From contig NZ_JACCCY010000001.1 in NCBI RefSeq assembly GCF_013409575.1, positions 988,501 to 1,052,500 of the forward strand: DNA of 64,000 bases. The letters are read 5' to 3'. Below the pieces are notes generated by a model. The model did no database searches. It was not told the origin of the DNA and saw nothing but the letters and a program-made list of their open reading frames with translations. Positions 11,797 through 42,663 of the stretch are shown here, piece after piece. Source of the DNA: Macellibacteroides fermentans (GTDB taxonomy: Bacteria; Bacteroidota; Bacteroidia; Bacteroidales; Tannerellaceae). The position numbers and the translations under genes are program-made. Within the stretch, counting starts at the first letter, position 1, and each line of letters starts with the position of its first letter.

Positions 11797-11878
11797 CTAT
11801 ACATTCTTTTTCTCTATACAGAAGAACAGTTTATTTGAGTTTTACCCTAGTGAAAAAATTAAAAAAATTCACTTTTTT

Positions 11879-12463
11879 TTAAATAATAAATCGAATAAGA
11901 AAAATCCAGATCCAGTATTCCTGGGGAAGTTCCTCTTTTAGAATCTGTAAAGCTTTGGAAATGTGATACTCTACTGTTTTCTGGGATATGTTTTTTGTTT
12001 CAGCGATTTGTTGATTTTTTAAACCATCGTAGCGGCTCAGCATAAAAATCTCCCGTGTTTTATCCGGTAATTTGCTTAAGGCCCTTTCAATGGCTTTATG
12101 AAGATCTTCCGATTCTACAATCTGCGAAGCCTCGTCTTGCAACACATACAGATTGGCCCGCTGATAAATTGTCTCGTCGTCTATCTCTTCAATATATAAC
12201 TGACGGATGCGGGTCTGCTCCAATAAATTAAGGCACTTGTTTCGCAGCACCACCATCAGGTAAGTAATCAGATTTGTGTTATCTTTTAAGATTGCACGGT
12301 TGTTCCATAATACCAGGAAAGTATCCTGAACCAGCTCCTGCGATGTCTCATTATTTTGCGTATAAATCAAGGCAAATTTAAACATACGAGGCCAGTATTC
12401 GCGCACAATCTGCTCGAACACCTTTTCATTTCCATCCTGTAATTGCTTAATAATCAAATTCAT
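11879..12463 (-). CDS. ECF sigma factor (RpoE-like, Bacteroidetes type)
   Basis: 194 residues with sigma region 2 (about 10-75; ELVQDTFLVLWNNR) and region 4 (about 125-180; LPDKTREIFMLSRYDGLKNQQIA, then KTVEYHISKAL helix-turn-helix). It lacks regions 1 and 3, as ECF factors do. It is expected to direct RNA polymerase to the susC promoter once freed by the FecR protein downstream. The C-terminus ends in a hydrophobic tail (WIWIFLIRFII), which is unusual but seen in some family members. Confidence 0.9.
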   Translation of the reverse strand: MNLIIKQLQDGNEKVFEQIVREYWPRMFKFALIYTQNNETSQELVQDTFLVLWNNRAILKDNTNLITYLMVVLRNKCLNLLEQTRIRQLYIEEIDDETIYQRANLYVLQDEASQIVESEDLHKAIERALSKLPDKTREIFMLSRYDGLKNQQIAETKNISQKTVEYHISKALQILKEELPQEYWIWIFLIRFII

Positions 12464-12838
12464 TGAACACGATTCAAATTACAAATAGTTGATCTTAAAA
12501 TTAAAGCAGAAAACTTACCACTACAATCTGAGGGACACACTCCCTTTACAACCATAGGAATGTTTATAATGCGGCAAAGATAAAGAATAAAACAAAAATT
12601 CACCTAACAAATGTGAATCTTATGCTAAATACCCATTTAAAAAGCGCATAGACCTTAGAGTGTTTTAGGTTCAAAGATTTACTATTATTATAATATTTAT
12701 ACCACAGAAAAGCACTAACTTTTGGGCAAAATAAACTATGGGTGCAAACAGTTCTTACAAAAGAAGACCGCATAGATATACTTGACCGTGAATGATAATA
12801 TTAGAAAAAACATATAAATATGGAAATAAATCAGATAA
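12464..12838 (-). promoter_or_regulatory. Intergenic region with a candidate sigma-gene promoter
   Basis: No credible gene is seen over these 375 bp. On the minus strand a TATCTTTG box at 12582-12575 fits the Bacteroides -7 consensus TAnnTTTG. A TTTG at 12611-12608 could be the -33 element, but the 25-base spacing is longer than the usual 19-21. The rest is AT-rich and without obvious structure. A short open frame (ATG at 12820, 24 codons) reads into the next feature out of frame and may be a relic. Confidence 0.35.
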
Positions 12839-13042
12839 GTGCCGAAGTCTCTGGACATAGACGTTGTGACGATTATGCCCCAAGGAACAAGTGAGGAATT
12901 TTGTGATGTGGACATACCGTTAGACGAGCTTGACACTACGCTTCATTGCCACTCATTATATTATTATGATGATGTGTTTCAAAAGGACGAGACATTTATA
13001 TTTTCAGGAACTTATCCAAATCAACTTAGAAAGTGGAAATAA
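12839..13042 (+). CDS. Small unknown protein overlapping the MBL-fold gene
   Basis: A 67-codon frame starting at a GTG directly after an in-frame stop; an ATG at codon 13 is an alternative start. It contains acidic and aromatic segments (DVDIPLDEL, SLYYYDDVFQKDETF) and ends TYPNQLRKWK. Its stop overlaps the GTG start of the MBL-fold gene by 10 bp, which suggests translational coupling. An overlapping short frame starting at 12820 (MEINQISAEVSGHRR) ends inside it, so a frameshifted longer ancestor is possible. I do not recognise a family. Confidence 0.4.
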   Translation: MPKSLDIDVVTIMPQGTSEEFCDVDIPLDELDTTLHCHSLYYYDDVFQKDETFIFSGTYPNQLRKWK

Positions 13043-14301
13043 TCATTCATCGCGGAGCAACTCAGATAGGTGGCTCTGTAACAGAATACAGGTACAACGG
13101 CTGGCGGCTGTTTGTTGATTTCGGAGAACAGTTGCCGGGTACTCCTGTCTACGTGCAGCTTGATATGGAAGGACTTACTAAAGGCGATCTTTCAAAGAGT
13201 GCCATGCTCATCACGCACTATCATGGCGACCATATTGGCAACATTCATCAGATTCCCATGGAGATTCCTGTATTTATGGGTAAATTGGGAATTGAGATTC
13301 AGAAGATAACATCCAATCATCTGAAAGAGGTTGACCGAAAGCAAGCGTGTTTACTTGAACGCCTTAACAAGGCAATTCCTTTTGAGGCAGGTACGGCTTT
13401 TGAATTTGGACCATTCGAGATAATGCCGATAGTTATAGACCACTCTGCATTTGATGCCTGCGCTTTCAAAATTAAGACCGATGATACAAGTGTATTTCAT
13501 ACCGGTGATTTTCGCACACACGGATTTCGTAGTGGAAAATTCCTTAAAGCGATTGATAAATACATAGGAAAGGTTGATTATGTGATTTGCGAAGGCACAA
13601 ATGTAAAGCGTTCGGATGCTGCTTTACAGTCAGAACACGATTTACAGAAACAACTGGAGGCGGAGTTTTGGCAGTATAAATTCAACATCGTTTATTTGTC
13701 CTCAACAAATATCGACCGTTTATTCTCGCTATATCATGCCGCATTACGGATTGGAATTCCCTTCATTGTTGATTCGCATCAAAAACGGATAATGGATGCA
13801 GTGGTCAAGAGCGACCATATTTGGGCAAAGTCAAGTCTCTATAAATATGGGAAATGTAAGCCTATGGTCTTGAAATATGACAAGGATAATCCGGGGGAAC
13901 ATCTTATTAGTGAGAAATTCATTGCTTTCCTTAAACAAAAAGGATATGTATTGATAGCCAGAAGCAACCCGCGATTCGACCATCTCATTGACAAAATGCC
14001 GGGTGAGTCCAAACAATGTTACCTCTCTATGTGGAACGGATATGTAAGCAATCCGGCATCGCCATCCTATAACAAAGAGCTTGCGGCAGCACTGGGAAAG
14101 GGATATCTTTATCGCCATACCAGCGGTCATTGCGATATGAAAAACCTTCGTAAGCTCTTTGTACAGCTTTCCCCCAAAGCGATCATTCCTATTCATACCG
14201 ATGCACCGGAGGCATTTGCCAAACTCTTCAACGACCAATGGCCGGTACGCCTTCTGCAAGACGGCGATTTGTTTATCTTACACTCTAAGAAACTTTTCTG
14301 A
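13033..14301 (+). CDS. Metallo-beta-lactamase-fold hydrolase, RNase J/beta-CASP-like
   Basis: 422 residues from a GTG start that overlaps the preceding small frame. The metal-binding motif THYHGDHIG is at residues 61-69 (His62, His64, Asp66, His67). HTGDFRTHG near residue 157 supplies the next metal ligand, and HTSGHCDMKNL plus IPIHTDAPEAF near the C-terminus match the late motifs of RNase J-like beta-CASP proteins. Such enzymes process RNA, but substrate cannot be fixed here, and this protein is shorter than RNase J (about 550 residues). It is flanked by a chimeric remnant and a transposon, so it may be part of an accessory module. Confidence 0.75.
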   Translation: MEIIIHRGATQIGGSVTEYRYNGWRLFVDFGEQLPGTPVYVQLDMEGLTKGDLSKSAMLITHYHGDHIGNIHQIPMEIPVFMGKLGIEIQKITSNHLKEVDRKQACLLERLNKAIPFEAGTAFEFGPFEIMPIVIDHSAFDACAFKIKTDDTSVFHTGDFRTHGFRSGKFLKAIDKYIGKVDYVICEGTNVKRSDAALQSEHDLQKQLEAEFWQYKFNIVYLSSTNIDRLFSLYHAALRIGIPFIVDSHQKRIMDAVVKSDHIWAKSSLYKYGKCKPMVLKYDKDNPGEHLISEKFIAFLKQKGYVLIARSNPRFDHLIDKMPGESKQCYLSMWNGYVSNPASPSYNKELAAALGKGYLYRHTSGHCDMKNLRKLFVQLSPKAIIPIHTDAPEAFAKLFNDQWPVRLLQDGDLFILHSKKLF

Positions 14302-14534
14302 TGAAAATACTTCACATATCGGATCCTCTCGGACGACATGCAGAACTGACTAATCTGCCCGAAGATGAAGATAGAAACTACTTCTTGATTGAGATTCCGT
14401 GTCGGGTGGGGTTTGACAAAAAGAATGGTCCTACAAATGGTCCTTTAAATGGTCCTTTAACAGAGAAGGAGTTATCTGTTCTTTTTGAGATTTCAATTTT
14501 GGTTGATTTAGTAATATCAACCGTTTTAAGTTGA
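14301..14534 (+). pseudogene. Chimeric gene remnant: phosphoesterase start joined to an AlbA_2/RecG-like tail
   Basis: A 77-codon frame whose ATG overlaps the stop of the MBL-fold gene. The first 20 residues (MKILHISDPLGRHAELTNLP) look like the start of a calcineurin-like phosphoesterase, but the usual metal-binding D-x-H is changed to DPL. From about residue 25 the text changes to YFLIEIPCRVGFDKK followed by NGPTNGPLNGPLTEKE, a linker and C-terminal style typical of AlbA_2/RecG-like transcriptional regulators. The NGP repeats come from three 12-bp DNA repeats at 14424-14459. It is far too short for either family, so it is best read as a deletion product. The junction is inferred. Confidence 0.5.
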
Positions 14535-14585
14535 TAAAATTGTTTTCGGCATACGGATATGACATAAATTTCCATTTCTACACAT

Positions 14586-14592
14586 ATAACTA
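14586..14592. repeat. Left copy of 7-bp target duplication of the composite transposon
   Basis: ATAACTA directly abuts the left inverted repeat of the first IS copy. The same 7 bp follow the right inverted repeat of the second IS copy at 24445-24451. The inner flanks do not match each other or these, so the duplication belongs to the whole 14593-24444 unit. Confidence 0.7.
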
Positions 14593-15613
14593 ACCCGTTG
14601 GCGGAATTAAATTAGTGCATATTTAATTTGTCCAATGGGTTTGTTATTAATCTTGTTTATATATTGAAGGATTGTAAGTGCACTAATTTTCCCCGTAATT
14701 CTGGTAAACAATCCTTCTGTTTGTTTTGCGTAATTTCTGATTATCATAAATTGATCGCATAATTGTGCAAAAAGCGTTTCAACCCTTTTCCTTGCTTTAG
14801 CAAATGGACTAAATACAGGTTTCCAATCTTTTTGATTCGACCGATATGGAACTTCCAACTTGATATTAGCTTTTTCAAATAAATCAAGTTGTATGGCTGC
14901 TCCAATATATCCACGATCACCGATGATGGTGCAATTCTGAAAGTTACACTTTACGTCTTTCAAATAATGAATGTCGTGAACACTCGCCTTTGTCAGGTCA
15001 AAAGAGTGTATGACACCGCTCAACCCACAGAGAGAATGTAATTTATATCCGTAATAATGTTTACCCTGTGAAGCACAATAGCCATAATTGGGAGCTTTAT
15101 CATAATTATTCTTTCCCATTTTACAACGTTTTGACCTTATGGGACGACAGACTTCAATTGGCATAGAATCAATACAGAAAATAGCTTCTCCACCATCAAC
15201 TTTTGATGCAATTCTTTCACGCACCTGATTACATAAGCCGATAGTGAGCTTCCTGCGATCATTATATTGACGACGGGATATGAGAGAAGAAAAATCATCT
15301 TTGTATTCATTTAATTTAGAAAACAAAAAGCTTTCACTATCTATACCTATTGATTCGGCAGCAAGGCTTAAACTGATCACTTCTAAGTCAGAGAACTTCG
15401 GGACGACTCCTCTGCGAGGTATATTCCCTTTTTCGTTTACTAAATCACCAGAAAACATCTTGCATATATCAAGAAATTTAGCGAATATTGCATATAAGTT
15501 GTGCATAATTGAGCTGTATATTAATAGTTTGATCACCATTAAAATACTAATAATCAATGATATGCACAACTTATTTCCTGACATTTTTTAGTGAATTAAT
15601 TCCGCCAACGGGT
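14593..15613 (-). mobile_element. IS982-family insertion sequence, left copy
   Basis: A 1021-bp element with terminal inverted repeats ACCCGTTGGCGGAATTAA at 14593-14610 and its complement at 15596-15613. It holds one transposase gene on the minus strand. Reading base by base, I find no difference from the copy at 23424-24444, which suggests recent duplication or ongoing homogenisation. Confidence 0.92.
14607..15584 (-). CDS. IS982-family transposase (left copy)
   Basis: 325 residues from the first ATG; Met27 (start at 15506) would give the roughly 300 residues usual for the family and begins MHNLYAIFAKF, so the first 26 residues may be untranslated. A DDE catalytic triad is visible: Asp139 in FCIDSMPIEVC, Asp223 in IIGDRGYIG and Glu269 in RKRVETLFAQLCDQF. 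The surrounding blocks (KFSDLEVISLSLAAES, VPYRSNQKDW, ALTILQYIN) are IS982-like. It appears intact, so the element may still be active. Confidence 0.92.
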   Translation of the reverse strand: MSGNKLCISLIISILMVIKLLIYSSIMHNLYAIFAKFLDICKMFSGDLVNEKGNIPRRGVVPKFSDLEVISLSLAAESIGIDSESFLFSKLNEYKDDFSSLISRRQYNDRRKLTIGLCNQVRERIASKVDGGEAIFCIDSMPIEVCRPIRSKRCKMGKNNYDKAPNYGYCASQGKHYYGYKLHSLCGLSGVIHSFDLTKASVHDIHYLKDVKCNFQNCTIIGDRGYIGAAIQLDLFEKANIKLEVPYRSNQKDWKPVFSPFAKARKRVETLFAQLCDQFMIIRNYAKQTEGLFTRITGKISALTILQYINKINNKPIGQIKYALI

Positions 15614-15628
15614 AATAAATATAATATC

Positions 15629-16546
15629 TTATAAAGTTGTGAAGATAGATTTCTGATTAAAGTTTTCTGTAAATGGTACTTCTTTTCTTGAAATATATTC
15701 GACTGGAGTTTTCCCCGTAAAATCTTTAAATTCTTTGAGGAAATGGTTGTAGTCATAGTAACCATTAGCTATTGCTACATTCAACAGATCATCTGGTTCA
15801 GCATGTAAGTTTAGATATGCTGAGATGAATCGTTGTAATTGTATGTATTCTTTAGGAGTAAGCCCCATATACTTGGAGAAATTCCGCTCCAGCCATTTGT
15901 AACTGGCCCCAATCTCTTTAATTACATTAGCTACGGAGATTTGTCCCTTAGTTTGATTGATTAGCTCAACAGCAGAATTTAATAAACCTATTCTGTCCTT
16001 TGTTGTAATTAGGCTCTTTATGTATAATTCGACTACAGTAATCTTGTTATCAATGGAATCTGTGGCAAATACTTGATTAAGTAACTCTCTATCAAAATTT
16101 ATCTCCGTAAATGTTGCAATATTCCTGCATTTGAAAAAAGAAGGCTGTAAGTTGAACAGTTTATGAAAATATTCAGGTTTAAATCTTATAATCAGAATAT
16201 AGTCTAAGTCTTCAAGATATCTCACATAGACTTTCTTCATTACACCTGCATCAATCCAACCCGATTTCACAATGTTTTCTTTACCATCAATATTAATGCG
16301 AGCCTTATTGTTTCTATCAGGAAATAGCATAATTGAAGGGGAGCCATCATTAAAAATCCAATGATCTGTTTTATTATCAATATCATAAAACAAATAGAAA
16401 CCTTCGATATAGTCAATACATACCTCCGATGGAGATTTCCTGATCCAGTATTCTCCATTAGAAGATATTCTTTCCTGTTGAATAATTTCTTTTAAAAAGT
16501 TGATTGGCATAATGGGTACAAAGATATGCATAATGTTCAACGACAA
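15629..16546 (-). CDS. AraC-family transcriptional regulator
   Basis: 305 residues from the first ATG; Met6 (16531) and Met13 (16510) are alternative starts and no ribosome site separates them. The N-terminal 170 residues form a cupin-like sensing domain (DYIEGFYLFYDIDNKTDHWIF). The C-terminal double helix-turn-helix spans about 200-290 (ASYKWLERNFSKYMGLTPKEY, then NVAIANGYYDYNHFLKEFKDFTGKTP). The stop lies 16 bp from the IS end. It diverges from the truncated map gene, and it is a candidate regulator of the efflux operon further along, although only position supports that. Confidence 0.85.
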   Translation of the reverse strand: MSLNIMHIFVPIMPINFLKEIIQQERISSNGEYWIRKSPSEVCIDYIEGFYLFYDIDNKTDHWIFNDGSPSIMLFPDRNNKARINIDGKENIVKSGWIDAGVMKKVYVRYLEDLDYILIIRFKPEYFHKLFNLQPSFFKCRNIATFTEINFDRELLNQVFATDSIDNKITVVELYIKSLITTKDRIGLLNSAVELINQTKGQISVANVIKEIGASYKWLERNFSKYMGLTPKEYIQLQRFISAYLNLHAEPDDLLNVAIANGYYDYNHFLKEFKDFTGKTPVEYISRKEVPFTENFNQKSIFTTL

Positions 16547-31816: not shown

Positions 31817-34800
31817 TTAAAAGTTATTTTTGTATTTAACAGTAGATTCTGCAACCTGATTAATATATTCTTTATCTGTTTCCATCACATACAATTTACT
31901 ACCCAGCTCAGTCTCATAAAAGAGTGAATCGGAAGAGTTGTCTGTCCATTCTTCGCATTGCTTGAGAACCACCTCCATTGCATTTTCGGACTCTTCAGGT
32001 GGATACTTATATTTTTTCAATAATCGTTTTACAAGTCTTCGCATACCAGCTCTGGCTCCTTCCTTTTTTTGCCAGTCGATTGTTCGGTTTTTACGTAGCA
32101 TATCCGTAAGTTCCTTTGTCATCTCAACTAAAATATCATGAGAATAAAAATCCATAACAGCTCTTGGCTTAGTCAACGCGTCGTAAAAAGCTTTTTCTTC
32201 TGCATTGAGACCCAATTTATTTCGTTCCGACTCGGACTCCGAAATCTCTTTCGCTAATTTGAGCAGCTCCTGTATAACCTCTTCATTGGTAAGCATCCCT
32301 TTCAGGTAGTTGGATAAAGCCTGATTCAATAAATCAGAAAACTTTTCCGATTGAACAAGATTGGTTTTTTTGTACATCGAAACCCGTTCGGCCAATAGTT
32401 TTTTAAGTAATTCTATGGCTATGTTTTTCTCTTTCATCTTAGAGATTTCCTCCAGAAATGCGGTATCGAATAAAGAGAACTCTGCTTTTACATCCGAAAA
32501 CAGGTTGATAATACCTTGACTTCTCACACTCTGTTTCAGCAACTCGCCAATACGTTCGTTAATCTCTTTTTTCGATACTTTGCCCTTTCCAGTCATTCGG
32601 GAAAGCAATGTACGAACCGTTTCAAAGAAAGCAGCTTCAAATCTATATTTCTCATCCAATAAACTACGACACAGCGTAATCGCATCATGTAATAGTTTTG
32701 CTTCTTTCAAAAATGATACCTTTTGGGCTTCTTTATCAGGTGCAATAATAAAGTTTACACCACCTTTTATAAGTTGCGCCCTGTCGTAATCACTTCCTTT
32801 CTGGAAAAGACTATAATCATAACCATGAAAGATATCACGGCAAATTTCGAGCTTCTCTTTAAACTTGATAAACGCGGTATCCTTTATATCTTGATTTCCA
32901 TAATTCTCTCTATCCCGTCTGGTATAATCGCGCATAGCATCCTTCAATGCTTTAGCTATACCGATATAATCCACAACAAGACCACCAGATTTATCTTGAA
33001 AAATTCTATTTACGCGAGCAATAGCTTGCATAAGATTATGCCCCTTCATGGGTTTAAAAACATACATTGTGGCAAGAGAAGGCACATCAAAACCTGTTAA
33101 CCACATATCAACCACGATTGCAATTTTCAGAGGATCGTCATTGTTTTTAAATTTCTTTGCCAGCTCCTTTTTATAAAACTTATTGCCAATAATAGCATTC
33201 CATTCTTCAGGATCTTTATTCCCTCCGGTCATTACAACCTTTACTTTTTCCGTCCAATCAGGTCTGATTTCTAATATTTTATAATATATATCAATTGCTA
33301 TAGCCCTTGAATAAGCCACAATCATAGCTTTACCTGTTAATTCATACTGACGATTTTCTTCGTAATGCCTGATAATATCCCTACAAAGAGAATCTATGGT
33401 TTCGGGTGCTCCCAGGATAGCTTCTATGTGTGATAATTCACGCTTACTTTTTTCAATCTGCTCTTTCTCTGCACCTTCATCAGCCAAAAGATCATATTCC
33501 TCATCTATTATTTTTAAAGTTTGATCATCCAGGTTGAGATTAATTACTCTAGACTCGTAATAGACTGGGCAGGTTGCACCATCCTCCACAGCTTGAGTCA
33601 TGTCGTAAACATCAATATAATTACCAAATACCTCCTGAGTATCTCTGTCTCTCGTTGAAATGGGAGTTCCTGTAAATCCTATATACGAAGCGTTGGGAAG
33701 CGAATCGTGAATAATACGGGCAGTTCCAATGGATACTTTACCTGTTTGCGGATCGATTTTTTCTTCGAAACCATATTGCCCCCGATGCGCTTCGTCCGTT
33801 ATTACAATGATATTTTTTCTTTCAGATAAAGGTTCGCTGGACTCTTCAAACTTCTGCATCGTAGTAAAAATAATACCATTAGCCTCACGTCCTAAAAGCA
33901 ACTTCTTAAGATGTTCTCTATTCTTTGCCCGAATGGGTGTTTGACGTAAGAATTGCCTACATGTAGAAAATTGAGTATAAAGCTGATCATCCAAATCATT
34001 TCTATCTGTAATAACAACTATGGTAGGTTGCGAAAAGGTAGTTTGAAGTAAATGAGCGTAAAAGACCATAGAAAGAGATTTCCCACTACCTTGTGTATGC
34101 CAGAACACACCGATTTTACCATCAGACTCGACCGCTATCTTCGTCCTTTCAATAGCTTTATTTACAGCAAAATATTGATGATAACCCGATAGAATCTTGA
34201 ATGATTCATTCTTATCATCTTTCGAAAAACAAATGAAGTTCTTTATTATATCAAGAAAACGGTCTTTCTTAAAAATACCCTCAAAGAAGGTATCGTAATC
34301 GGCGTATTCGGTACTTTCGTAGCTCCCATCTTTAGTTTTCCACTCCATATAGCGATCTTCTTTGCTTGTTATAGTTCCCGCCTTGGAACAGCTCATGTCG
34401 CTCATTACACAAAATGCGTTATACACGAACAAAGAGGGTATTTCGTGCATATAATTTTTTAATTGCCTGTAAGCTTCGGAGACATCTGTGTTTTCACGGG
34501 ATGGCGATTTAAGTTCGGCAATAACCAAAGGAAGTCCATTTACAAAAACAATTATATCCGCACGTTTTTCCGACTTTTCCACATGCACCCATTGATTCAT
34601 CACCTGGAATGTGTTTTTGTGGATCTTGTCAAAATCTACTAAATAAATAATGTCATGACGCTGCTCTTTCCCGTCATAATACGACACCTCTATACCATGC
34701 TGCAGATAATCCGTAAAATGCTCGTTACGTTTGGCCAAGCTGCCTGTATCTATGTCTTTTAGTTTTGTAACAGCTTCGTAAATAGCAATTTGTGGTTTTT

Positions 34801-34954
34801 CTGGATTTACATCATAAAGACTCTGAAACAATTGTTCCTCGTAAAAAGGCACATAATAATCTCGCTCAATATAGGGAGCATACAAATGCTTATATCCCAA
34901 TTGTTGGAATAATTGAATAAGCGCTTGTTCGTAATTGTTTTCTGTAAATGACAT
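31817..34954 (-). CDS. hsdR: Type I restriction enzyme R subunit
   Basis: 1045 residues. The N-terminal HSDR_N nuclease domain has a PD-(D/E)xK-type site (Asp133 in RADIIVFVNG; Glu147 and Lys149 in VIAELKSP). The SF2 motor follows with Walker A QGSGKS (288-293) and the DEAH box TDEAH (386-390), then GFTGTPIS and the helicase C-terminal block ATMYVFKPMKGHNLMQAIARVNR. The C-terminus should contact the methylase complex. It translocates DNA and cleaves unmodified DNA at a distance. It appears full length with all motifs present. It is the last gene of the operon. Confidence 0.95.
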   Translation of the reverse strand: MSFTENNYEQALIQLFQQLGYKHLYAPYIERDYYVPFYEEQLFQSLYDVNPEKPQIAIYEAVTKLKDIDTGSLAKRNEHFTDYLQHGIEVSYYDGKEQRHDIIYLVDFDKIHKNTFQVMNQWVHVEKSEKRADIIVFVNGLPLVIAELKSPSRENTDVSEAYRQLKNYMHEIPSLFVYNAFCVMSDMSCSKAGTITSKEDRYMEWKTKDGSYESTEYADYDTFFEGIFKKDRFLDIIKNFICFSKDDKNESFKILSGYHQYFAVNKAIERTKIAVESDGKIGVFWHTQGSGKSLSMVFYAHLLQTTFSQPTIVVITDRNDLDDQLYTQFSTCRQFLRQTPIRAKNREHLKKLLLGREANGIIFTTMQKFEESSEPLSERKNIIVITDEAHRGQYGFEEKIDPQTGKVSIGTARIIHDSLPNASYIGFTGTPISTRDRDTQEVFGNYIDVYDMTQAVEDGATCPVYYESRVINLNLDDQTLKIIDEEYDLLADEGAEKEQIEKSKRELSHIEAILGAPETIDSLCRDIIRHYEENRQYELTGKAMIVAYSRAIAIDIYYKILEIRPDWTEKVKVVMTGGNKDPEEWNAIIGNKFYKKELAKKFKNNDDPLKIAIVVDMWLTGFDVPSLATMYVFKPMKGHNLMQAIARVNRIFQDKSGGLVVDYIGIAKALKDAMRDYTRRDRENYGNQDIKDTAFIKFKEKLEICRDIFHGYDYSLFQKGSDYDRAQLIKGGVNFIIAPDKEAQKVSFLKEAKLLHDAITLCRSLLDEKYRFEAAFFETVRTLLSRMTGKGKVSKKEINERIGELLKQSVRSQGIINLFSDVKAEFSLFDTAFLEEISKMKEKNIAIELLKKLLAERVSMYKKTNLVQSEKFSDLLNQALSNYLKGMLTNEEVIQELLKLAKEISESESERNKLGLNAEEKAFYDALTKPRAVMDFYSHDILVEMTKELTDMLRKNRTIDWQKKEGARAGMRRLVKRLLKKYKYPPEESENAMEVVLKQCEEWTDNSSDSLFYETELGSKLYVMETDKEYINQVAESTVKYKNNF

Positions 34955-34960
34955 GGTATT

Positions 34961-35590
34961 TTATTTTTCGACTTTTGTTTCCAAATAATTCAAATATTCT
35001 TCTCTGTAAGCCTCATAATCTTGCTGATACATTGCTTCAGAGGCAGACAGTGTTAAGAATCCAATTACAAGAGGATTTGCATCGTCAAAATATTCATTGA
35101 ATTGGTCACAATCTTCATAATGAATCCGACTGTCTTTTTTCGGATTATTATGAGTCATGTAATAGTGTAAAATAAAACCACCAATTACATCTGTGATTTT
35201 GTAAATGAATAGAGACATTGTAGAGTCAACGGAAATGTTCTTTATATCCTGGCTATGGGATGCAAATCCAGAATTATTCCTTATTTCTGCAATGACCTGA
35301 GCAACCGAAGCAATTCTTCTTGCCAATTCACAAAGTTTTTCCTTGTGGTTATACGAATTAATTACTAAAACTTCAATGGTTTGTCTTACAAGCTCTTGAA
35401 ATTTAATATCATCTTTATATATGTAGGCCTTATTTGTCAGAATAGTCTTACATATTCCCTCAATCAAACTTTTACAAGTTTCAATACACAATGCAGGATT
35501 CATTTCAATATTGTTAACTATTGTATCTGCGTGTGTATTAAACGTGTCAAAACTCGGCATTTTAGAAATATGTTCTCTTATCCAAAACAT
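34961..35590 (-). CDS. Abi_C-type abortive infection protein
   Basis: 209 residues. The block NPALCIETCKSLIEGICKTILTNK followed by a region ending EIRNNSGFASHSQDIK matches the C-terminal domain of abortive infection proteins (Abi_C), where the R-N-x-x-G...H-G/S motif is typical. It is 6 bp from hsdR and abuts the half hsdS gene (35591). Such proteins are found with type I restriction systems; they probably act on RNA or shut cells down upon phage infection. The biochemical activity is not established here. Confidence 0.72.
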   Translation of the reverse strand: MFWIREHISKMPSFDTFNTHADTIVNNIEMNPALCIETCKSLIEGICKTILTNKAYIYKDDIKFQELVRQTIEVLVINSYNHKEKLCELARRIASVAQVIAEIRNNSGFASHSQDIKNISVDSTMSLFIYKITDVIGGFILHYYMTHNNPKKDSRIHYEDCDQFNEYFDDANPLVIGFLTLSASEAMYQQDYEAYREEYLNYLETKVEK

Positions 35591-36064
35591 TCAATTAAAG
35601 ATTAAATTATCATTTATCCGGCGATTGAGTTCGATTTTATCGTCTATGGATTTTAATATTGATACTATCTTTTTCTGTCTTTGAATTTTCTTGTAAAATT
35701 TTACTTTTATTGGATGGATATGATTGCGATTTAATGTTGGTACTGCACTACCACCACCAAATGAAGAAAGAGGTAATGTTCTAAGTAAATAATATAAATA
35801 TTCAGGGTCATTACCCTTAAAATCATCTACATACAAAACTGTATTATGAGCCCAACATTTATTATAAATATACGGAGTGCCTATATTACCACTTCTCCCA
35901 ATTGTAATACATGGATAAATTGATGTTTCTTTATTATGATATCCTATTATGCCGTTTGAACCTGCAACTGGGATATTTCCCTTTTGCACTTTAGACTTAG
36001 GTAAATCATGACCACGTCTAAAATTCAAAATATCGCCGAGACTTTTTTCTACTACATCGCCCAT
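35591..36064 (-). CDS. hsdS: Half hsdS: first target recognition domain only
   Basis: 157 residues: one target recognition domain (GDILNFRRGHDLPKSKVQKG, YHNKETSIYPCITIGRSGNIG) and the start of the central helix SIDDKIELNRRINDNL, after which it reads IFN and stops. The break falls exactly in the sequence that is shared with the full hsdS at 36743 and with the other half at 37953. A normal HsdS has about 400 residues with two recognition domains. A single half can sometimes dimerise, but more likely this is a silent cassette. Confidence 0.85.
   Translation of the reverse strand: MGDVVEKSLGDILNFRRGHDLPKSKVQKGNIPVAGSNGIIGYHNKETSIYPCITIGRSGNIGTPYIYNKCWAHNTVLYVDDFKGNDPEYLYYLLRTLPLSSFGGGSAVPTLNRNHIHPIKVKFYKKIQRQKKIVSILKSIDDKIELNRRINDNLIFN
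35604..35615 (-). repeat. Shared recombination-core sequence in half hsdS (C copy)
   Basis: AAATTATCATTT on the plus strand, coding NDNL on the minus strand. Identity with the full hsdS (37413-37424) extends only to the right, through about 35 bp encoding DKIELNRRIND. The same core also occurs at 38641-38652. Confidence 0.75.
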
Positions 36065-36075
36065 TTTAATTCTTA

Positions 36076-36732
36076 TTATTTTCGTGGTATATTTCTTTTT
36101 AACTTTTTTGTTTCAACTTTTAGTGCGTCTTCTCTAAAAAGGCTTTCAATAATATCCAACACCTTATTTACTTCCTCCAATTCAGCAATATAGCCTCTAT
36201 GAGCGGCTGCATTTCCATATTCCAAGGCAACCGATAAAAAATCTTTTTGGACTTGAGTTATGAAATTCTGTTCAAGAAGTTTTTCCAATTTATTTTTAAA
36301 AGTTCCTACATCTCCTATTTTCTCCACAATATATAAATCCAAAAGTGTTCTTGCTCCTATTAATGGTAAAGTAATGTTACCACAATTTAGGGAAGTATAT
36401 ACTTCTCTAAATAAGCCAATATAATTTATTTTAAGATTTACAATCCATTTAGGAATATCTCGAACTTGATTATTGGGATATGTAAGGATAATTTCGTCTT
36501 CTATGCGCGGATCTTTGCGCTCATAAACATTTAGATTAATTTTCTTACAGCCACAACACTCTGTAATTTCGTATATATTAGCAACTATTGTAAAAAAACT
36601 ATTAAGTTTATTCCCATTTTTATCGTACCCAATTATCTCAGGAGAGTCTAAGACACCTTTATTAAATATTACTTTTTGTTGAGTTTTGCATTTGCAATTA
36701 TAACAGTATATACTTTTTATTTTCTCTTCCAT
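36076..36732 (-). CDS. DUF4145 protein within the restriction operon
   Basis: 218 residues. Two CxxC-like pairs near the start (YCYNCKCKTQ) and near residue 58 (ECCGCKK) suggest a zinc ribbon. The C-terminal half, LIGARTLLDLYIVEKIGDVGTF followed by a helix and YGNAAAHRGY, is the DUF4145 pattern, often found in or beside type I restriction systems and other defence loci. Its start shares a 61-bp repeat with the start of the full hsdS. Function is unknown; an anti-phage role is inferred from context. Confidence 0.7.
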   Translation of the reverse strand: MEEKIKSIYCYNCKCKTQQKVIFNKGVLDSPEIIGYDKNGNKLNSFFTIVANIYEITECCGCKKINLNVYERKDPRIEDEIILTYPNNQVRDIPKWIVNLKINYIGLFREVYTSLNCGNITLPLIGARTLLDLYIVEKIGDVGTFKNKLEKLLEQNFITQVQKDFLSVALEYGNAAAHRGYIAELEEVNKVLDIIESLFREDALKVETKKLKRNIPRK

Positions 36733-36784
36733 AAATGAGAATTTAGCAGTTTAAATCGTTAATTTTTATCTCTCCGGACATCAG
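36724..36784 (-). repeat. 61-bp direct repeat at the end of the full hsdS
   Basis: This 61-bp stretch covers the last codons of hsdS (GEIKINDLNC), the gap and the first codons of the DUF4145 gene (MEE). It recurs at 37934-37994 with one mismatch that I can see (cc-g versus cc-a). The full hsdS lies exactly between the two copies. Confidence 0.85.
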
Positions 36785-37942
36785 CTTGGGGAGGATAGAA
36801 TCTCGTAAATTAGTTAATACAACTGTTTCTGTTTCCTTTGTAGATATTGTTTTCTTTAAAGTAGTATCTTTTACTTGAAATTTGCACCAAATATCAAATG
36901 GGGGAACTAGTATTAACTTATTATCTAATCCTCCCTTATCTAATGCTTGTCCCTCTCTTGCCGCAGTTCCAATCAAATCATTAAAATAACTTATTTTTGA
37001 TTCCATATAATATTTTAAGTATAGTGGATTTATAACGTTATCATCTATACTATAAATATTGTATGCAGAACTCACACCTCCTATTTCGTCAAGCATAATT
37101 CCCCAATTCAATATTTCACGACTCATTCCAAAAACCAAATTGAATTTTCTTAGAACTTTATTTTTTGATGTACTACTACTTAATTGTTTCTTATATTTTC
37201 CAGAGCGTGGGATAATTCCATTATTAGTAACAGAGTATTCAGGCAATGATCCTGCAAGAACTTTTTCAGTAAAAGGTGTTATGAATGAACTTAAAGTAAC
37301 AACTCTCCATCCCTCAGGTATCATCCCAAGCTCGGAATCTACGAATTTACCATCTTTGAATGGATCAAAGTCAACGAACCAAGACTTGAATAAAGCCTGT
37401 GCCTGCTGCTCTAAATTATCATTTATCCGGCGATTGAGTTCGATTTTGTTATCGAGAGAAGATAGAATTTCAGATATCCTTAGTTGAATTTCATAAGATG
37501 GATATGAAACAAGAACTTCTTTAAGCTCAGATTGTTTGATACCTGTAACCGTTGTTCCTGTTTCCCTAGCACATAACCTTGAATGACCTATGTTGGATAA
37601 AAAATAGTATTTTAGATATTTATTATCTAAAATACCATTTTTTCCTCTAAGACAAACTGTCCTCTGTGCCAATGCTATCTTTCTATCATCAAGTTGGGCA
37701 ACTTCACCTAGTGGAGCTTCAGTTGTCAAAACTACATCGCCTTCTTTTGGAAGACCTCGAACCATCCAACTATCATAATTATCTTCTGCTATATATTCCG
37801 TAGGAGTCTCAATTCTACCATTTTTAATAATTTTAGCAGTAATAAGAGGGACTCCTGATTCCGTTTTAACAGGTGTCTTTCCTCTATAATCGATTAATTG
37901 GTCCAGTAAATCGATTAATTTATCTTCTTTCCACTCTTCCAT
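36743..37942 (-). CDS. hsdS: Type I restriction specificity subunit, full length
   Basis: 399 residues with two target recognition domains separated by a conserved helix. TRD1 (about 1-160) starts WKEDKLIDLLDQLIDYRGK. The central spacer LDNKIELNRRINDNLEQQAQ is followed by ALFKSWFVDFDPFKDGKF. TRD2 (about 210-370) follows, and the C-terminal helix ends LRDSILPKLMSGEIKINDLNC. It selects the DNA target for both methylation and cleavage. It is the only complete hsdS in the window, so it is presumably the one in use. Direct repeats flank it, so it behaves as a cassette. Confidence 0.93.
   Translation of the reverse strand: MEEWKEDKLIDLLDQLIDYRGKTPVKTESGVPLITAKIIKNGRIETPTEYIAEDNYDSWMVRGLPKEGDVVLTTEAPLGEVAQLDDRKIALAQRTVCLRGKNGILDNKYLKYYFLSNIGHSRLCARETGTTVTGIKQSELKEVLVSYPSYEIQLRISEILSSLDNKIELNRRINDNLEQQAQALFKSWFVDFDPFKDGKFVDSELGMIPEGWRVVTLSSFITPFTEKVLAGSLPEYSVTNNGIIPRSGKYKKQLSSSTSKNKVLRKFNLVFGMSREILNWGIMLDEIGGVSSAYNIYSIDDNVINPLYLKYYMESKISYFNDLIGTAAREGQALDKGGLDNKLILVPPFDIWCKFQVKDTTLKKTISTKETETVVLTNLRDSILPKLMSGEIKINDLNC
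37413..37424 (-). repeat. Shared recombination-core sequence in full hsdS (A copy)
   Basis: AAATTATCATTT on the plus strand. Here identity extends both ways: to the right it matches the 35604 copy, to the left (coding EQQAQALFKSWF) it matches the 38641 copy. So this gene holds the unbroken form of the junction that is broken in the two half genes. Confidence 0.75.
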
Positions 37943-37994
37943 AAATGAGAATTTAGCAGTTTAAATCGTTAATTTTTATCTCTCCAGACATCAG
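37934..37994 (-). repeat. 61-bp direct repeat at the end of the upstream half hsdS
   Basis: Partner of 36724-36784. It covers the last codons of the half hsdS at 37953 and the first codons of the full hsdS. Recombination between the two copies would remove exactly one full hsdS gene. Confidence 0.85.
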
Positions 37995-38711
37995 TTTAGG
38001 TAAAAGAGAATCACGTAAAAAAGATAATTCCTTGTTTTCTTGTCTTAAATAATGTATTTTATCTAAGATTGGATTCACTATTTTGCAGAGCTCGGTGATT
38101 ACATCTACATTAATGGCCAATTTGAGATTTAATGAATCTTCTAAGTGAAAACGTTGATGACTTCCAGTAGCACCATTAACGAGACTCATAATAGAATTAT
38201 AAAACCCATCGCTAGATATTACTGAGTAAACAAATGAATATTTACCAGGATCCTTAGCTTGATATGGTATAAACTCTGTTGAGCAGACAGAATTTAGATC
38301 TACTTTATGCGTAAACCAAATACGCTTAATTCTCGGATTCAATTTAGAAAATAGAGTAGTATAGTCATTCAATATAAACTTATTGCTCTTGATGTCAGTT
38401 CCTAGCTGTATTTCAGGAGTAAGACCATTATCAAATGCAGGCAAACTGTAATGAACAAAAGTTTTGCTTAAGTTCTTTTGGGGATTAATGCTATCTTTTT
38501 CAATGACTACTATATCTCTTAGAGTTGCAACATTCCATCCCTCAGGTATCATCCCAAGCTCAGAATCTACGAAATTACCATCTTTGAACGGCTCAAAGTC
38601 AACAAACCAGGACTTGAATAAAGCCTGTGCCTGCTGCTCTAAATTATCATTTCTCACTTTCTTTAAGGAAAAATGAATAGTGTGTTTATATGTTGAGTTA
38701 CAAACAATCAT
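37953..38711 (-). CDS. hsdS: Half hsdS: central helix plus second target recognition domain
   Basis: 252 residues. The first 20 (MIVCNSTYKHTIHFSLKKVR) are unlike HsdS and come from the sequence beside the recombinase. From NDNLEQQAQALFKSWFVDFEPFK onward it matches the full gene's central region, then carries a different TRD2 (about 60-220) and the shared end KLMSGEIKINDLNC. It lacks TRD1. Its ATG lies 2 bp from the recombinase stop. It would complement the 35591 half at the shared core. Confidence 0.85.
   Translation of the reverse strand: MIVCNSTYKHTIHFSLKKVRNDNLEQQAQALFKSWFVDFEPFKDGNFVDSELGMIPEGWNVATLRDIVVIEKDSINPQKNLSKTFVHYSLPAFDNGLTPEIQLGTDIKSNKFILNDYTTLFSKLNPRIKRIWFTHKVDLNSVCSTEFIPYQAKDPGKYSFVYSVISSDGFYNSIMSLVNGATGSHQRFHLEDSLNLKLAINVDVITELCKIVNPILDKIHYLRQENKELSFLRDSLLPKLMSGEIKINDLNC
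38641..38652 (-). repeat. Shared recombination-core sequence in upstream half hsdS (B copy)
   Basis: AAATTATCATTT on the plus strand. Identity with the full hsdS extends only to the left; to the right the sequence becomes CTCACTTTCTTTAAGG, unrelated to hsdS. This is the other outer edge of the split gene, 3.04 kb from the 35604 copy and in the same orientation. Confidence 0.75.
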
Positions 38712-38713
38712 AA

Positions 38714-39706
38714 TCAGTAGATGTATTTACGATGCGATAATTTCACATTAGTTTGATTAACCATGGCATAGTGCATCGTGGTGTCTATTTTCACATGCCC
38801 TAATAATAGTTGAACTTGTTCTACGGGCATTCCTTTATCAATTGCCATTGTAGCCAGAGTACGACGGAATTTATGTGGATGTAATCGGTTGATTTTAAGT
38901 TTTCTACCAATATTACGAAGACGCATCTCCACTCCTGATATCTGTAAGCGAGCATGAGGTTTAGCTAATGAAACAAACAAGGCAGGATTTCTATCTTTGC
39001 GAGATTTAAGATATTGTTGTAAATGTATTTTCGTTCGCGCATTGAAATAAACCATTCGCTCTTTATTTCCTTTACCGAAAACAACACACTCGCGTTCTTG
39101 AAAATTAATGTCGCTTCTGTTTAATTTTACAAGTTCTCCAACACGTATTCCTGTAGAAGATAGCAGATCGATGATTGCCAAATCACGGATTTGGGTACAG
39201 CTATCCCGAAGCATTTCTAACGATTCATCACTTAATACTTCCTTAATTTGTGTCCCTGTCTTAACCTTATGAATTCGCCTGACTGGACTTTTCAGGATAT
39301 AATCCTCTTCTTCCAACCATGCAAAGAATGAAGAAAAGATACGACGTATATTATCTATTGTTACTTTGCTGGATTTCCGTTTACTCTGAAATACAGCCAA
39401 ATAAGCCCGAATATCCTCTGTAGTATAATCGGCTACATTTTTAGGCATCCCGTTAAATAAATGACGAATAGTTGAGTCGTAATATTTTATCGTTTTTAGA
39501 GAACATCCTTCAACCTGTTTCGCTGATAAGAAAATTTCGAGCAATCTGGAATTTGAAGCAAAATCTTCATGCACAGTTTCTCCATCAACAACAACTTCAT
39601 ATTTACTAAGTATTTGTAATAATGAAGTGCTGAGTTGTGCAGTTTGTTCAAATGTTAAAACTCCAGACATAGCATTCTCAATTTCGTTAATCAGTTTTTC
39701 TTTCAT
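38714..39706 (-). CDS. Tyrosine recombinase in the hsd locus
   Basis: 330 residues. A SAM-like N-terminal DNA-binding domain (about 50-140) is followed by the catalytic domain with Arg188 (TGIRVGEL), Lys212 (GKGNKER), His278 and Arg281 (HPHKFRRT), His304 (LLGHV) and the nucleophile Tyr313 (MHYAMV). All catalytic residues are present. Recombinases of this type sit in many Bacteroidales type I loci and shuffle hsdS domains. It lies between hsdM and the hsdS cassettes, so it is the natural candidate for acting on the AAATTATCATTT cores. Its targets are inferred. Confidence 0.9.
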   Translation of the reverse strand: MKEKLINEIENAMSGVLTFEQTAQLSTSLLQILSKYEVVVDGETVHEDFASNSRLLEIFLSAKQVEGCSLKTIKYYDSTIRHLFNGMPKNVADYTTEDIRAYLAVFQSKRKSSKVTIDNIRRIFSSFFAWLEEEDYILKSPVRRIHKVKTGTQIKEVLSDESLEMLRDSCTQIRDLAIIDLLSSTGIRVGELVKLNRSDINFQERECVVFGKGNKERMVYFNARTKIHLQQYLKSRKDRNPALFVSLAKPHARLQISGVEMRLRNIGRKLKINRLHPHKFRRTLATMAIDKGMPVEQVQLLLGHVKIDTTMHYAMVNQTNVKLSHRKYIY

Positions 39707-39760: not shown

Positions 39761-41287
39761 TTATATAGTAAACCCAATGCTCTTCAATTGTTTTCTAATT
39801 TCATCTTCCAGCTCGTGAGATTTTTCAAAGAGTCCCGATAATTCACTGGTAAGTCGATCCATCTTTATCTCGAATGGTTCTCCGTCATCTTCTACATCTG
39901 CAATACCAACATAACGACCCGGGGTAAGGATATAATCCTGCTTAGCAACTTCGCTTAATGGAACAACTGCGCAGAATCCCTTTTCATCTTCCAATGTTCC
40001 TTCATTAAATGAAGTGAATGTATCAGCAATTTTTTGAATATCTCCTATTTCTCCGTTCTCCATATCGTCTGAGTCGGTAAGCTCACGAAGTTTACGGGTA
40101 ATCATCGTCCCCATATTACGAGCATCAACAAAAAGGATTTTTCCTTTTTGTTTTTTCTGACGATTTATAAACCATAATGAAACCGGAATTCCTGTTGTAT
40201 AAAATAACTGAGGTGGTAGAGCTACAATACCTTCTATTAGGTCTGCTTTAATAATATTTTCTCTTATTGTTCCTTCGCCTCCGGTCTGGGAGGATAACGA
40301 ACCGTTTGCTAATACCATTCCCATTTTACCTCTGGGAGACAAATGGTGAATCATATGCTGCATCCATGCGAAGTTAGCATTACCAGCAGGCGGTATTCCA
40401 AACTTCCAGCGTACATCTTCCTGAAGTTTATCAGCCCCCCAATCACTAAGATTAAATGGAGGATTGGCCAAAATAAAGTCGGCTTTTAAGGTAGGATGTT
40501 GATCATCGAAAAATGTATCGGCATTAAATTTTCCCAAATCTGCTTCTATTCCATGAATCGCTAGATTCATATGAGCCATTTTCCATGTTGTTGGATTGCT
40601 GTCTTGACCGAAGACAGAGATATCATTAATATTTCCCTGGTGATTTTCTATAAATTTCACCGACTGAACAAACATACCTCCAGATCCACATGCAGGGTCG
40701 TATACACGACCACTAAATGGTTTTATCACTTCTATCAATGTCTTTACAATACAAGCTGGTGTATAAAACTCTCCTGCCAGTTTACCTTCTGCTTCGGCAA
40801 ATTTTGATAAACAATATTCATAGGTACGGCCCAAAATATCTTTATTACCATGCTCATGCATTTGAACATTGGAAAATAAATCCACCACATTACCTAATCT
40901 TCTTTTATCCAATTCCGGACGAGCAAAGTTTTTAGGGAGTATTCCTTTCAGGCGATTATTTTCTTTTTCAATTAAACGCATGGCGTCGTCTATAACCATA
41001 CCAATTTCTGCAGTGTGTGCTGCTTCAGAAATTACACTCCAGCGGGCTTCTTGCGGTACAAAGAAAATATTCTCCGAAGTATATTCATCTTTATCTTCTT
41101 GAAAGCCATCTCCTTCGTCAATCAATTCCTGATATCTCGCTTCAAACCGGTCTGAAATATATTTCAAAAATATTAGTCCAAGTACAACAGATTTATATTC
41201 TGAAGCATCCAAATTACCTCTCAACAAGTCTGCTGCTTTCCAAATTTCTTTCTCGAACCCAATCTCTACGGTATTATTTTTGGCCAT
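39761..41287 (-). CDS. hsdM: Type I DNA methyltransferase M subunit
   Basis: 508 residues. The N-terminal HsdM_N domain (about 5-140) precedes the N6-adenine methylase domain with the SAM-binding motif DPACGSGGMF (197-206) and catalytic NPPF (275-278). The EFYTP block at 173-177 is typical. The C-terminal helices pair with HsdS. It methylates adenine in the target set by HsdS and protects host DNA. It is the first gene of the operon. It appears intact. Confidence 0.95.
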   Translation of the reverse strand: MAKNNTVEIGFEKEIWKAADLLRGNLDASEYKSVVLGLIFLKYISDRFEARYQELIDEGDGFQEDKDEYTSENIFFVPQEARWSVISEAAHTAEIGMVIDDAMRLIEKENNRLKGILPKNFARPELDKRRLGNVVDLFSNVQMHEHGNKDILGRTYEYCLSKFAEAEGKLAGEFYTPACIVKTLIEVIKPFSGRVYDPACGSGGMFVQSVKFIENHQGNINDISVFGQDSNPTTWKMAHMNLAIHGIEADLGKFNADTFFDDQHPTLKADFILANPPFNLSDWGADKLQEDVRWKFGIPPAGNANFAWMQHMIHHLSPRGKMGMVLANGSLSSQTGGEGTIRENIIKADLIEGIVALPPQLFYTTGIPVSLWFINRQKKQKGKILFVDARNMGTMITRKLRELTDSDDMENGEIGDIQKIADTFTSFNEGTLEDEKGFCAVVPLSEVAKQDYILTPGRYVGIADVEDDGEPFEIKMDRLTSELSGLFEKSHELEDEIRKQLKSIGFTI

Positions 41288-42556: not shown

Positions 42557-42649
42557 ACCTTTTCGGGTACAAATATAAGATTATTATTCAATAATAGACC
42601 CTTTCGGGTGTTATTTCGTGATTATACGGAGAATAACACCCGAAAGGGT
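42557..42649. promoter_or_regulatory. Three operator-like palindromes around the repressor promoter
   Basis: ACCTTTTCGGGT (42557-42568), ACCCTTTCGGGT (42598-42609) and ACCCGAAAGGGT (42638-42649) share the form ACC-n6-GGT. The last two extend to a perfect 18-bp inverted repeat (42598-42615 with 42632-42649). A TATATTTG -7 box for the repressor (minus strand, 42577-42570) lies between the first and second sites, so binding would block the promoter. The large hairpin may also end transcripts from the salvage operon, whose last gene stops at 42664. Confidence 0.6.
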
Positions 42650-42663
42650 ATCTTATTATTGCT

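Follow-up and report, generated by a model that had tools for sequence, protein, structure and literature searches.

Direct arrays of hsdS cassettes beside a tyrosine recombinase in type I restriction-modification loci of Macellibacteroides fermentans and its relatives

The locus in Macellibacteroides fermentans

We analysed a 64 kb stretch of the Macellibacteroides fermentans genome (hereafter the window), which contains a type I restriction-modification (RM) locus read on the minus strand. Open-reading frames (ORFs) and Pfam matches give the gene order hsdM, tyrosine recombinase, C-half hsdS, full hsdS, DUF4145 gene, N-half hsdS, Abi_C-domain gene and hsdR, an anatomy that points to a phase-variable type I RM locus. 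The hsdS region is built around a 12-bp core, AAATTATCATTT, of which the 64 kb holds exactly three copies (35604-35615, 37413-37424 and 38641-38652), each on the same strand; 0.05 copies were expected and three were reached in 0 of 100 shuffles. Read on the gene strand the core is AAATGATAATTT(A), which codes N-D-N-L within hsdS. The features of the locus are, in gene order:

39761..41287, minus: hsdM, type I methyltransferase subunit, 508 aa (N6_Mtase PF02384, 9.7e-105, and HsdM_N)
38714..39706, minus: tyrosine recombinase, 330 aa, outside the predicted excisable segment (Phage_integrase PF00589, 8.3e-33)
38653..38711, minus: leader of a mini-ORF read as a landing pad; its ATG lies 2 nt past the recombinase stop and it keeps the HsdS frame through the core
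38640..38652, minus: docking core (first core), AAATGATAATTTA
37953..38711, minus: C-half hsdS (C1), 252 aa, comprising leader, central conserved region and second target-recognition domain
37934..38028, minus: 95-nt tail repeat, copy 1, made of C-terminal hsdS codons and the tail site, placed like the pneumococcal TER
37943..37955, minus: tail site 1, TAAATTCTCATTT, an inverted core with altered centre, overlapping the C-half stop and followed by the next ATG
36743..37942, minus: full hsdS, N1 joined to C2, 399 aa (Methylase_S PF01420, 1.9e-16; PADLOC Specificity_I, 9.7e-72)
37412..37424, minus: middle core, AAATGATAATTTA, unbroken inside the full hsdS
36724..36818, minus: 95-nt tail repeat, copy 2, 88% alike to copy 1
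36733..36745, minus: tail site 2, TAAATTCTCATTT, at the end of the full hsdS and ahead of the DUF4145 gene
36076..36732, minus: DUF4145 protein, 218 aa, cargo of the second cassette (PF13643, 4.1e-12)
35591..36064, minus: N-half hsdS (N2), 157 aa, first target-recognition domain (PF01420, 2.1e-16)
35603..35615, minus: terminal core, AAATGATAATTTA
34961..35590, minus: Abi_C-domain gene between the terminal core and hsdR (PF14355, 2.8e-07; AbiJ, 8.9e-06)
31817..34954, minus: hsdR, type I restriction subunit, 1045 aa (HSDR_N, SWI2_SNF2, T1RH-like_C)

The start-to-start distance of the outer cores is 3,037 bp and the segment between them is bounded by complementary hsdS halves. By coordinate and translation arithmetic, a circle formed from it would join the N-half (154 codons) to the C-half (228 codons) in one frame to give a 382-aa hybrid HsdS; the full hsdS and the DUF4145 gene would lie on the same circle. 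A first-pass annotation had proposed just such a circle of about 3.04 kb, containing a hybrid and a full hsdS with DUF4145, between the outer of three same-orientation cores of which the middle one is unbroken in the full hsdS, and the sequence layout that it described was borne out. Its description of two halves meeting at the core stands for the N-half, which stops 7 residues past the start of its core codons, but not for the C-half, the ORF of which starts 59 nt upstream of the core with an in-frame leader. C1 is hsdS-like by phmmer and hidden Markov model comparison against the hsdS genes of the window, and alone has no Pfam match. The cores differ in what surrounds them: first and middle cores share a 138-nt direct repeat (91%) on the C side, middle and last cores a 36-nt direct repeat (100%) on the N side, and first and last cores little outside the core itself. 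An exact 21-mer, the core plus GAGCAGCA, occurs in the M. fermentans genome only at the first two cores of the locus, so by this exact pattern (hsdS halves lacking the 21-mer were not searched for) there is no further site elsewhere and no inverted cassette outside the locus to account for the halves.

The recombinase adjoining the array is complete, as first annotated: residues 164-318 align to positions 13-170 of the 172 in the PF00589 profile, the protein can be aligned with XerD/XerA chains, and the aligned R, K, H, R, H and Y are presumably its catalytic residues. The Abi_C-domain gene has a weak AbiJ match and occupies the same position in a number of related loci; it may be a functional part of the system. 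PADLOC models gave no match to the DUF4145 protein of the window. A terminator-like inverted repeat of 26 nt (92%) with a 16-nt loop lies at 42590-42657.

Relatives, empty sites and permuted cassettes

Relatives were taken from a genome-contig scan with the window recombinase as the best 80 of 274 loci; the collections hold one genome per species, and the array comparisons are between species. One group, comprising the window, L023-L067 without L065, and the cut locus L099, has the recombinase straight after hsdM and all cores direct wherever the contig reaches. Its records are mostly Bacteroidales by title, with names including Bacteroides, Phocaeicola, Prevotella, Dysgonomonas and Parabacteroides, and L034 is a metagenome-assembled genome (MAG) labelled Clostridia. 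The other 35 loci mostly have hsdS on both sides of the recombinase. In a census with one core pattern, the 46 loci of the group included 26 informative ones, all with cores in one orientation and none with both (20 had no repeated core), whereas the 35 others included 22 informative ones, all with both orientations, the layout of invertons, and none with one (13 had no repeated core); L183 and L185, outside the census, also have cores in both. In the recombinase tree the direct arrays form a single clade (support 100, 47 rows) and layout, direct versus inverted, tracks the tree. Both recombinase trees were quick searches with support from the Shimodaira-Hasegawa-like approximate likelihood ratio test (SH-aLRT) only, and the tree label 'I' also covers loci of unreadable orientation (13 of 35 uninformative). 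The nearest recombinases (L023, L038 and L027) belong to loci 82-85% identical to the window over hsdM-recombinase with no match upstream, and since the match ends there we do not take them as strains of one species. A scan of viral contigs gave five loci, one of them in the clade (L105), which is in our view host DNA.

Three further members of the recombinase family are noted as observations. L100 (a Robinsoniella MAG) has a 3.6-kb head-to-tail direct repeat, 100% identical, holding recombinase and hsdS, which is either real or an assembly artefact. L143, from the genus of L088 (Streptococcus), has the order hsdM, hsdS, hsdS, hsdR, recombinase, hsdS fragment, and is another layout within the same family. 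L097 places a recombinase relative beside hsdS on a contig assigned to a Methanobacteriaceae archaeon MAG, by transfer or binning error.

Forty loci of the docking-core type were examined (window, L023-L054, L063, L067, L105, L177, L179, L181 and L182). Their common plan is hsdM, recombinase, docking core, k cassettes, terminal core, hsdR. Between two cores a cassette has a C-half, then a tail site, then an N-half, and some cassettes also hold cargo on one or other side of the tail site. Whole arrays from docking to terminal core were present in 27: 22 of these have two cassettes (k=2), L032 and L051 have three, L067 has one and L048 and L053 have none (k=0). The first-pass annotation had seen halves awaiting rejoining; they are indeed split, but a split-ended array is the usual layout across the clade. 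In the window and the other docking-core loci the recombinase precedes the docking core, and so lies outside the circle. The docking core is visible in 37 of 40 loci, 55-72 nt past the recombinase stop, and in all 37 a leader ATG (-1 to +13 nt from the end of that stop) is in the HsdS frame through the core. At the terminal core, 23 of 24 cases have a stop 5-10 residues after the core codons begin (47 residues in L027). Because the leader is in frame through the docking core and the terminal core is followed by an early stop, empty loci encode a mini-ORF (leader, NDNL, short tail), which we read from its sequence as a putative landing pad. The single cassette of L067 (Phocaeicola massiliensis, 11049-16187) is accompanied by IS66 genes and that locus has no complete hsdS. 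Ten loci inside the clade (L055-L062, L064 and L066) form a subgroup without a docking core; here a tail site lies at most 56 nt after the recombinase in nine of the ten (the pattern finds none in L057), which suggests that a tail site can itself act as docking site. In one of them, L055, two direct cores lie 63 bp apart.

Two relatives, L048 (Prevotella micans) and L053 (P. ihumii), carry as their resident arrangement the deletion junction predicted in the first-pass annotation. In both, hsdM and the recombinase are followed by the left flank of a docking site, one core and the right flank of a terminal site, with no hsdS before hsdR; the core is followed by an Abi_C remnant and then hsdR in L048, and by hsdR in L053. 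The flanks of L048 match L046, L049 and L050 on both sides, and the L053 tail, NDNLKLTA-stop, resembles NDNLKLIA-stop of L043 and L179. The pattern AAATGATAATTTAGA, which is blind to loci with another centre, is absent from the genomes of both. Across 20 genomes or records it matched in 14; the additional matches in G399 (its only one) and in contig 2 of G397 were discarded as unrelated sequence, and G408 also matched the reversed control pattern, once per strand. By our own reading the Abi_C gene of L048 has an early stop, and that locus may be decaying.

Cassettes also stand in permuted order. L037 (Phocaeicola faecium) 11060-13067 corresponds to L042 (Bacteroides sp. ET71) 13413-15420 over 2,008 bp at 99.1% identity, and L037 13595-15964 to L042 11060-13425 over 2,370 bp at 99.6%, so that the block which comes first in one locus comes second in the other. 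Of the four block edges, three are at core edges in each of the two genomes. The flanks are 93.7% and 89.2% identical, and the greater likeness of the cassettes points to transfer between species. Similarly, two N modules occupy each other's slots when L177 is compared with L050 (99.7% over 633 bp and 90.9% over 1,466 bp), each block stopping at the final base of the core, and single modules occupy differing slots in L025/L026 (94.2%), L047/L049 (87.8%), L041/L046 (85.9%) and L105/L043 (90.5%). Altogether 19 locus pairs share array blocks (at least 250 bp, at least 85%). We clustered 114 modules at 70% protein identity (two L041 modules touch an assembly gap). Among 25 clusters of at least two, 16 had members in differing slots (8 of 14 N, 8 of 11 C) and nine did not, and none of the 25 mixed N with C. 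The window N1 module clusters with the terminal N of L024 and the middle N of L045 (72.7-74.8%). A single fixed hsdS arrangement, the outcome that the first-pass annotation would have held against itself, was thus not what the comparison between species found.

Centres of the cores and tail sites

The full core form is 13 bp, AAAT-centre-ATTTA, with the centre at positions 4-7. In 28 of 28 loci the centre is the same at the docking core and all other cores of that locus, and four versions occur between loci (21, 4, 2 and 1 loci). The core search patterns permit only some centres, and the comparison was repeated with open centres, where docking and middle cores agreed in 25 of 26. The mismatch, in L054, was set aside as a chance match, the contig ending before a middle core. 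Nothing in the coding of HsdS obliges the docking and terminal cores to follow the middle one, so the agreement is most simply put down to shared recombination.

Tail sites close the C-halves or cargo genes, and in 65 of 71 cases an ATG follows immediately. Their sequence is TAAATTCTCATTT in most loci, whereas a group of Prevotella loci has TAAATTCCCATTT. The inverton L065 carries at the corresponding position TAAATTATCATTT, the exact inverted core, from which the window tail site is one base off. Of 50 clade loci, 37 have both core and tail sites, and the two centres differ in 37 of 37 (68 tail sites), by one base in 21, the window among them, and by two or three in 16. Tyrosine recombinases need equal centres in both recombining sites, as with heterospecific lox sites. 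The mismatch would therefore forbid inversion between core and tail site and would leave direct exchange between cores, and perhaps between tail sites. That the tail site is mere start-codon context is doubtful, as the same DNA follows a YhcG cargo gene, not hsdS, in L043. Tail-site DNA follows non-HsdS cargo at about 14082 in L043 and about 12158 in L037, and the last codons of the L043 YhcG gene look like an hsdS tail; this sequence context hints that cargo may have entered by recombination at tail sites.

Two tvr-like loci, L144 and L145, carry by our own reading a tail repeat AAATCACAATTT and a midpoint repeat AAATCCCGATTT, with centres CACA and CCCG between AAAT and ATTT and one tail copy per locus with an altered right arm. 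The tvr lineage, the TvrR-like proteins of which fall outside the direct-array clade and are not its sister, appears to have reached two site classes independently. We consider it an even chance that the centre acts as a code choosing between inversion and excision: ancestral shufflers with equal midpoint and inverted-tail centres would invert, divergence would have made two incompatible site classes and turned an inverton into an integron-like platform, and the platform of the clade would exchange specificity and defence cassettes between species.

Proposed excision and reintegration, alternatives and known systems

The locus is, we think with good confidence, best explained by excision and reintegration of cassettes at direct cores by a stationary recombinase, a reading drawn from sequence comparison. 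What the sequences show directly is the anatomy and its conservation in the clade, the permuted cassettes, the empty sites, and centres that agree among the cores of a locus but not with its tail sites. The tyrosine recombinase would recognise the 13-bp core, and crossover of two direct cores would release one cassette (its C-half, tail site, any cargo and N-half) or several as a circle, within which the excised halves would form a hybrid gene. Reintegration at the docking, middle or terminal core would restore or change the order. With two cassettes, order 1-2 would give HsdS N1-C2, the present state, and order 2-1 would give N2-C1; with one or none no complete hsdS would remain, and modification and restriction would be off. 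The tail site would be a second, inverted site class whose differing centre blocks core-tail inversion, and exchange between tail sites may re-pair N and C modules independently. The first-pass annotation had preferred excision with reinsertion, or cassette exchange, to inversion, and the empty sites, the permuted cassettes and the absence of both orientations among the 26 informative clade loci side with it.

Cargo is carried on the cassettes and may act as stabiliser or extra defence. Pfam was run on 20 chosen ORFs, two of which, in L032 and L039, are not part of the array but sit between the terminal core and hsdR. The matches within arrays were to Fic (L037 twice, L050), DUF1016/YhcG nucleases (L043, L056), AbiJ_NTD4 (L047, L061), RhuM (L054) and IS66 genes (two L067 ORFs), and eight of the 20 lacked a Pfam match. 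For five cargo proteins the best PADLOC models were PDC-S04 and PDC-S72 (Fic), PDC-S02 (YhcG) and PDC-S32 (AbiJ-like).

Several observations weigh against excision and reintegration. Contig ends or gaps cut 13 of the 40 docking-core loci, and the L050 C-half is broken, its frame stopping 40 codons past the core. A number of the blocks shared between loci consist of cargo alone or occupy matching slots (for example in L046/L049), and the fourth L037/L042 edge lies at an N-half start, where there is no core. The comparisons are between species; homologous recombination over the 138-nt and 95-nt repeats could explain some of the moves, and the empty sites could be old, irreversible deletions. Label shuffling never reproduced the agreement of centres (0 of 100,000), a result that does not remove shared ancestry, and four centre versions represent only a few independent changes.

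Some of these points belong to the alternative that fares best, though we consider it improbable: RecA-dependent homologous recombination between conserved hsdS segments, with the recombinase incidental. It could draw on the direct repeats of 138, 95 and 36 nt and would account for the L037/L042 edge that lies away from a core. However, docking and terminal cores in the window share little else, yet that very junction occurs in L048 and L053; in 28 of 28 loci the cores that encode part of HsdS have the same centre as those that do not; and direct or inverted layout follows the recombinase tree. Slightly less probable still is a static locus in decay that no longer rearranges, in which old duplications left two pseudogene fragments beside a single working hsdS. 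Only the middle hsdS ORF of the window is complete, as it would predict, but ends made of a C-half and an N-half recur across the clade, the leader stays in frame in all 37 loci although its spacing varies (55-72 nt), L037 and L042 have their cassettes in different orders at 99% identity, and the recombinase ORF and domain are intact; the window locus is not a case of local decay. A classical inverton of the Bacteroides fragilis or pneumococcal ivr/cod type, caught facing one way or with its inverted partner elsewhere, is very improbable, since for all its homologous recombinase and core and its tail sites that are inverted core-like copies, the same core runs both ways in none of the 26 informative clade loci but in all 22 informative loci outside, tail and core centres differ in 37 of 37, and the genome has no further exact core plus GAGCAGCA site.

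For excision and reintegration the closest known system is the pneumococcal tvr locus (SpnIV; TvrR), named in 2014 (PMC4263131), for which Kwun et al. 2018 showed by experiment tvrR-driven excision-reintegration with circular intermediates and two types of direct repeat (PMC6265443). Both are type I RM systems with repeat classes at the hsdS midpoint and tail. Their recombinases belong to one family: identity to the L140 and L142 recombinases is 63-64% over about 290-300 residues, and the loci of these two, L144 and L145, look tvr-like, with genes that from order, size and sequence are probably tvrA, tvrT and tvrR. The N and C modules keep their positions in tvr as here (PMC6265443), and both systems carry Fic/Doc-type genes. 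Midpoint and tail repeats are direct copies in tvr, just as the cores and the 95-nt tail repeats are direct in the clade. The tvr Doc-like gene is reported there to repress the recombinase gene (PMC6265443); that clade cargo might play a similar role is a guess by analogy. The tvr locus differs in carrying its recombinase and toxin-antitoxin genes on the circle, whereas the clade recombinase lies outside, beside hsdM and followed by docking core and leader, and the tvr repeats are reported in one orientation, whereas clade tail sites read as inverted cores. The clade recombinases (support 100, 47 rows) exclude both TvrR-like rows. Because its recombinase is outside the circle and in another lineage, the window locus is not a member of tvr.

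The hsdS invertons, pneumococcal ivr/cod with PsrA and Bacteroidota loci such as L065, L075 and L080, share a homologous recombinase and the same 13-bp midpoint core, the inverted partner of which lies at the hsdS tail where looked at closely. In these the identical core runs both ways around the recombinase, unlike the clade, where cores are all direct and tail centres differ; the window locus is not an inverton. PsrA, the recombinase of the pneumococcal inverton, is reported by Li et al. 2020 to produce inversions in vitro as a purified protein (PMC7096588), and Bacteroides fragilis appears among the inversion systems listed in PMC6620402. Integrons resemble the locus by analogy of layout only: a recombinase gene, apparently stationary, by a docking site, an array of cassettes that would circularise, assumed to lack promoters of their own, and an order that varies between relatives. 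They differ in that the clade core lies inside coding sequence and the cassettes are circularly permuted, with genes forming across the joins. The comparison supports well the view that the locus would work like tvr excision-reintegration in an integron-like layout. Circular permutation and half-subunit HsdS are treated in a review (PMC3874165), and that work makes active half subunits conceivable here too.

Direct hsdS arrays in Bacteroidales were not found in the titles and abstract openings that our search covered, most subscription journals and bioRxiv lying outside it. The software of a 2020 REBASE survey searches for inverted repeats, and the term 'direct repeat' is absent from its main text (PMC7394358), so direct arrays would escape it. 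If the proposed mechanism holds, excision-reintegration of type I specificity genes would extend from pneumococci to a clade spanning Bacteroides, Phocaeicola, Prevotella, Dysgonomonas and Parabacteroides, and would add an OFF state without any complete hsdS. It would further supply a rule, a single base in many loci, for how a shuffler switches from inverting to excising. Fic, YhcG or AbiJ-like genes, for which PADLOC defence-candidate models give matches, would gain a way into hsdMSR operons and from one species to another.

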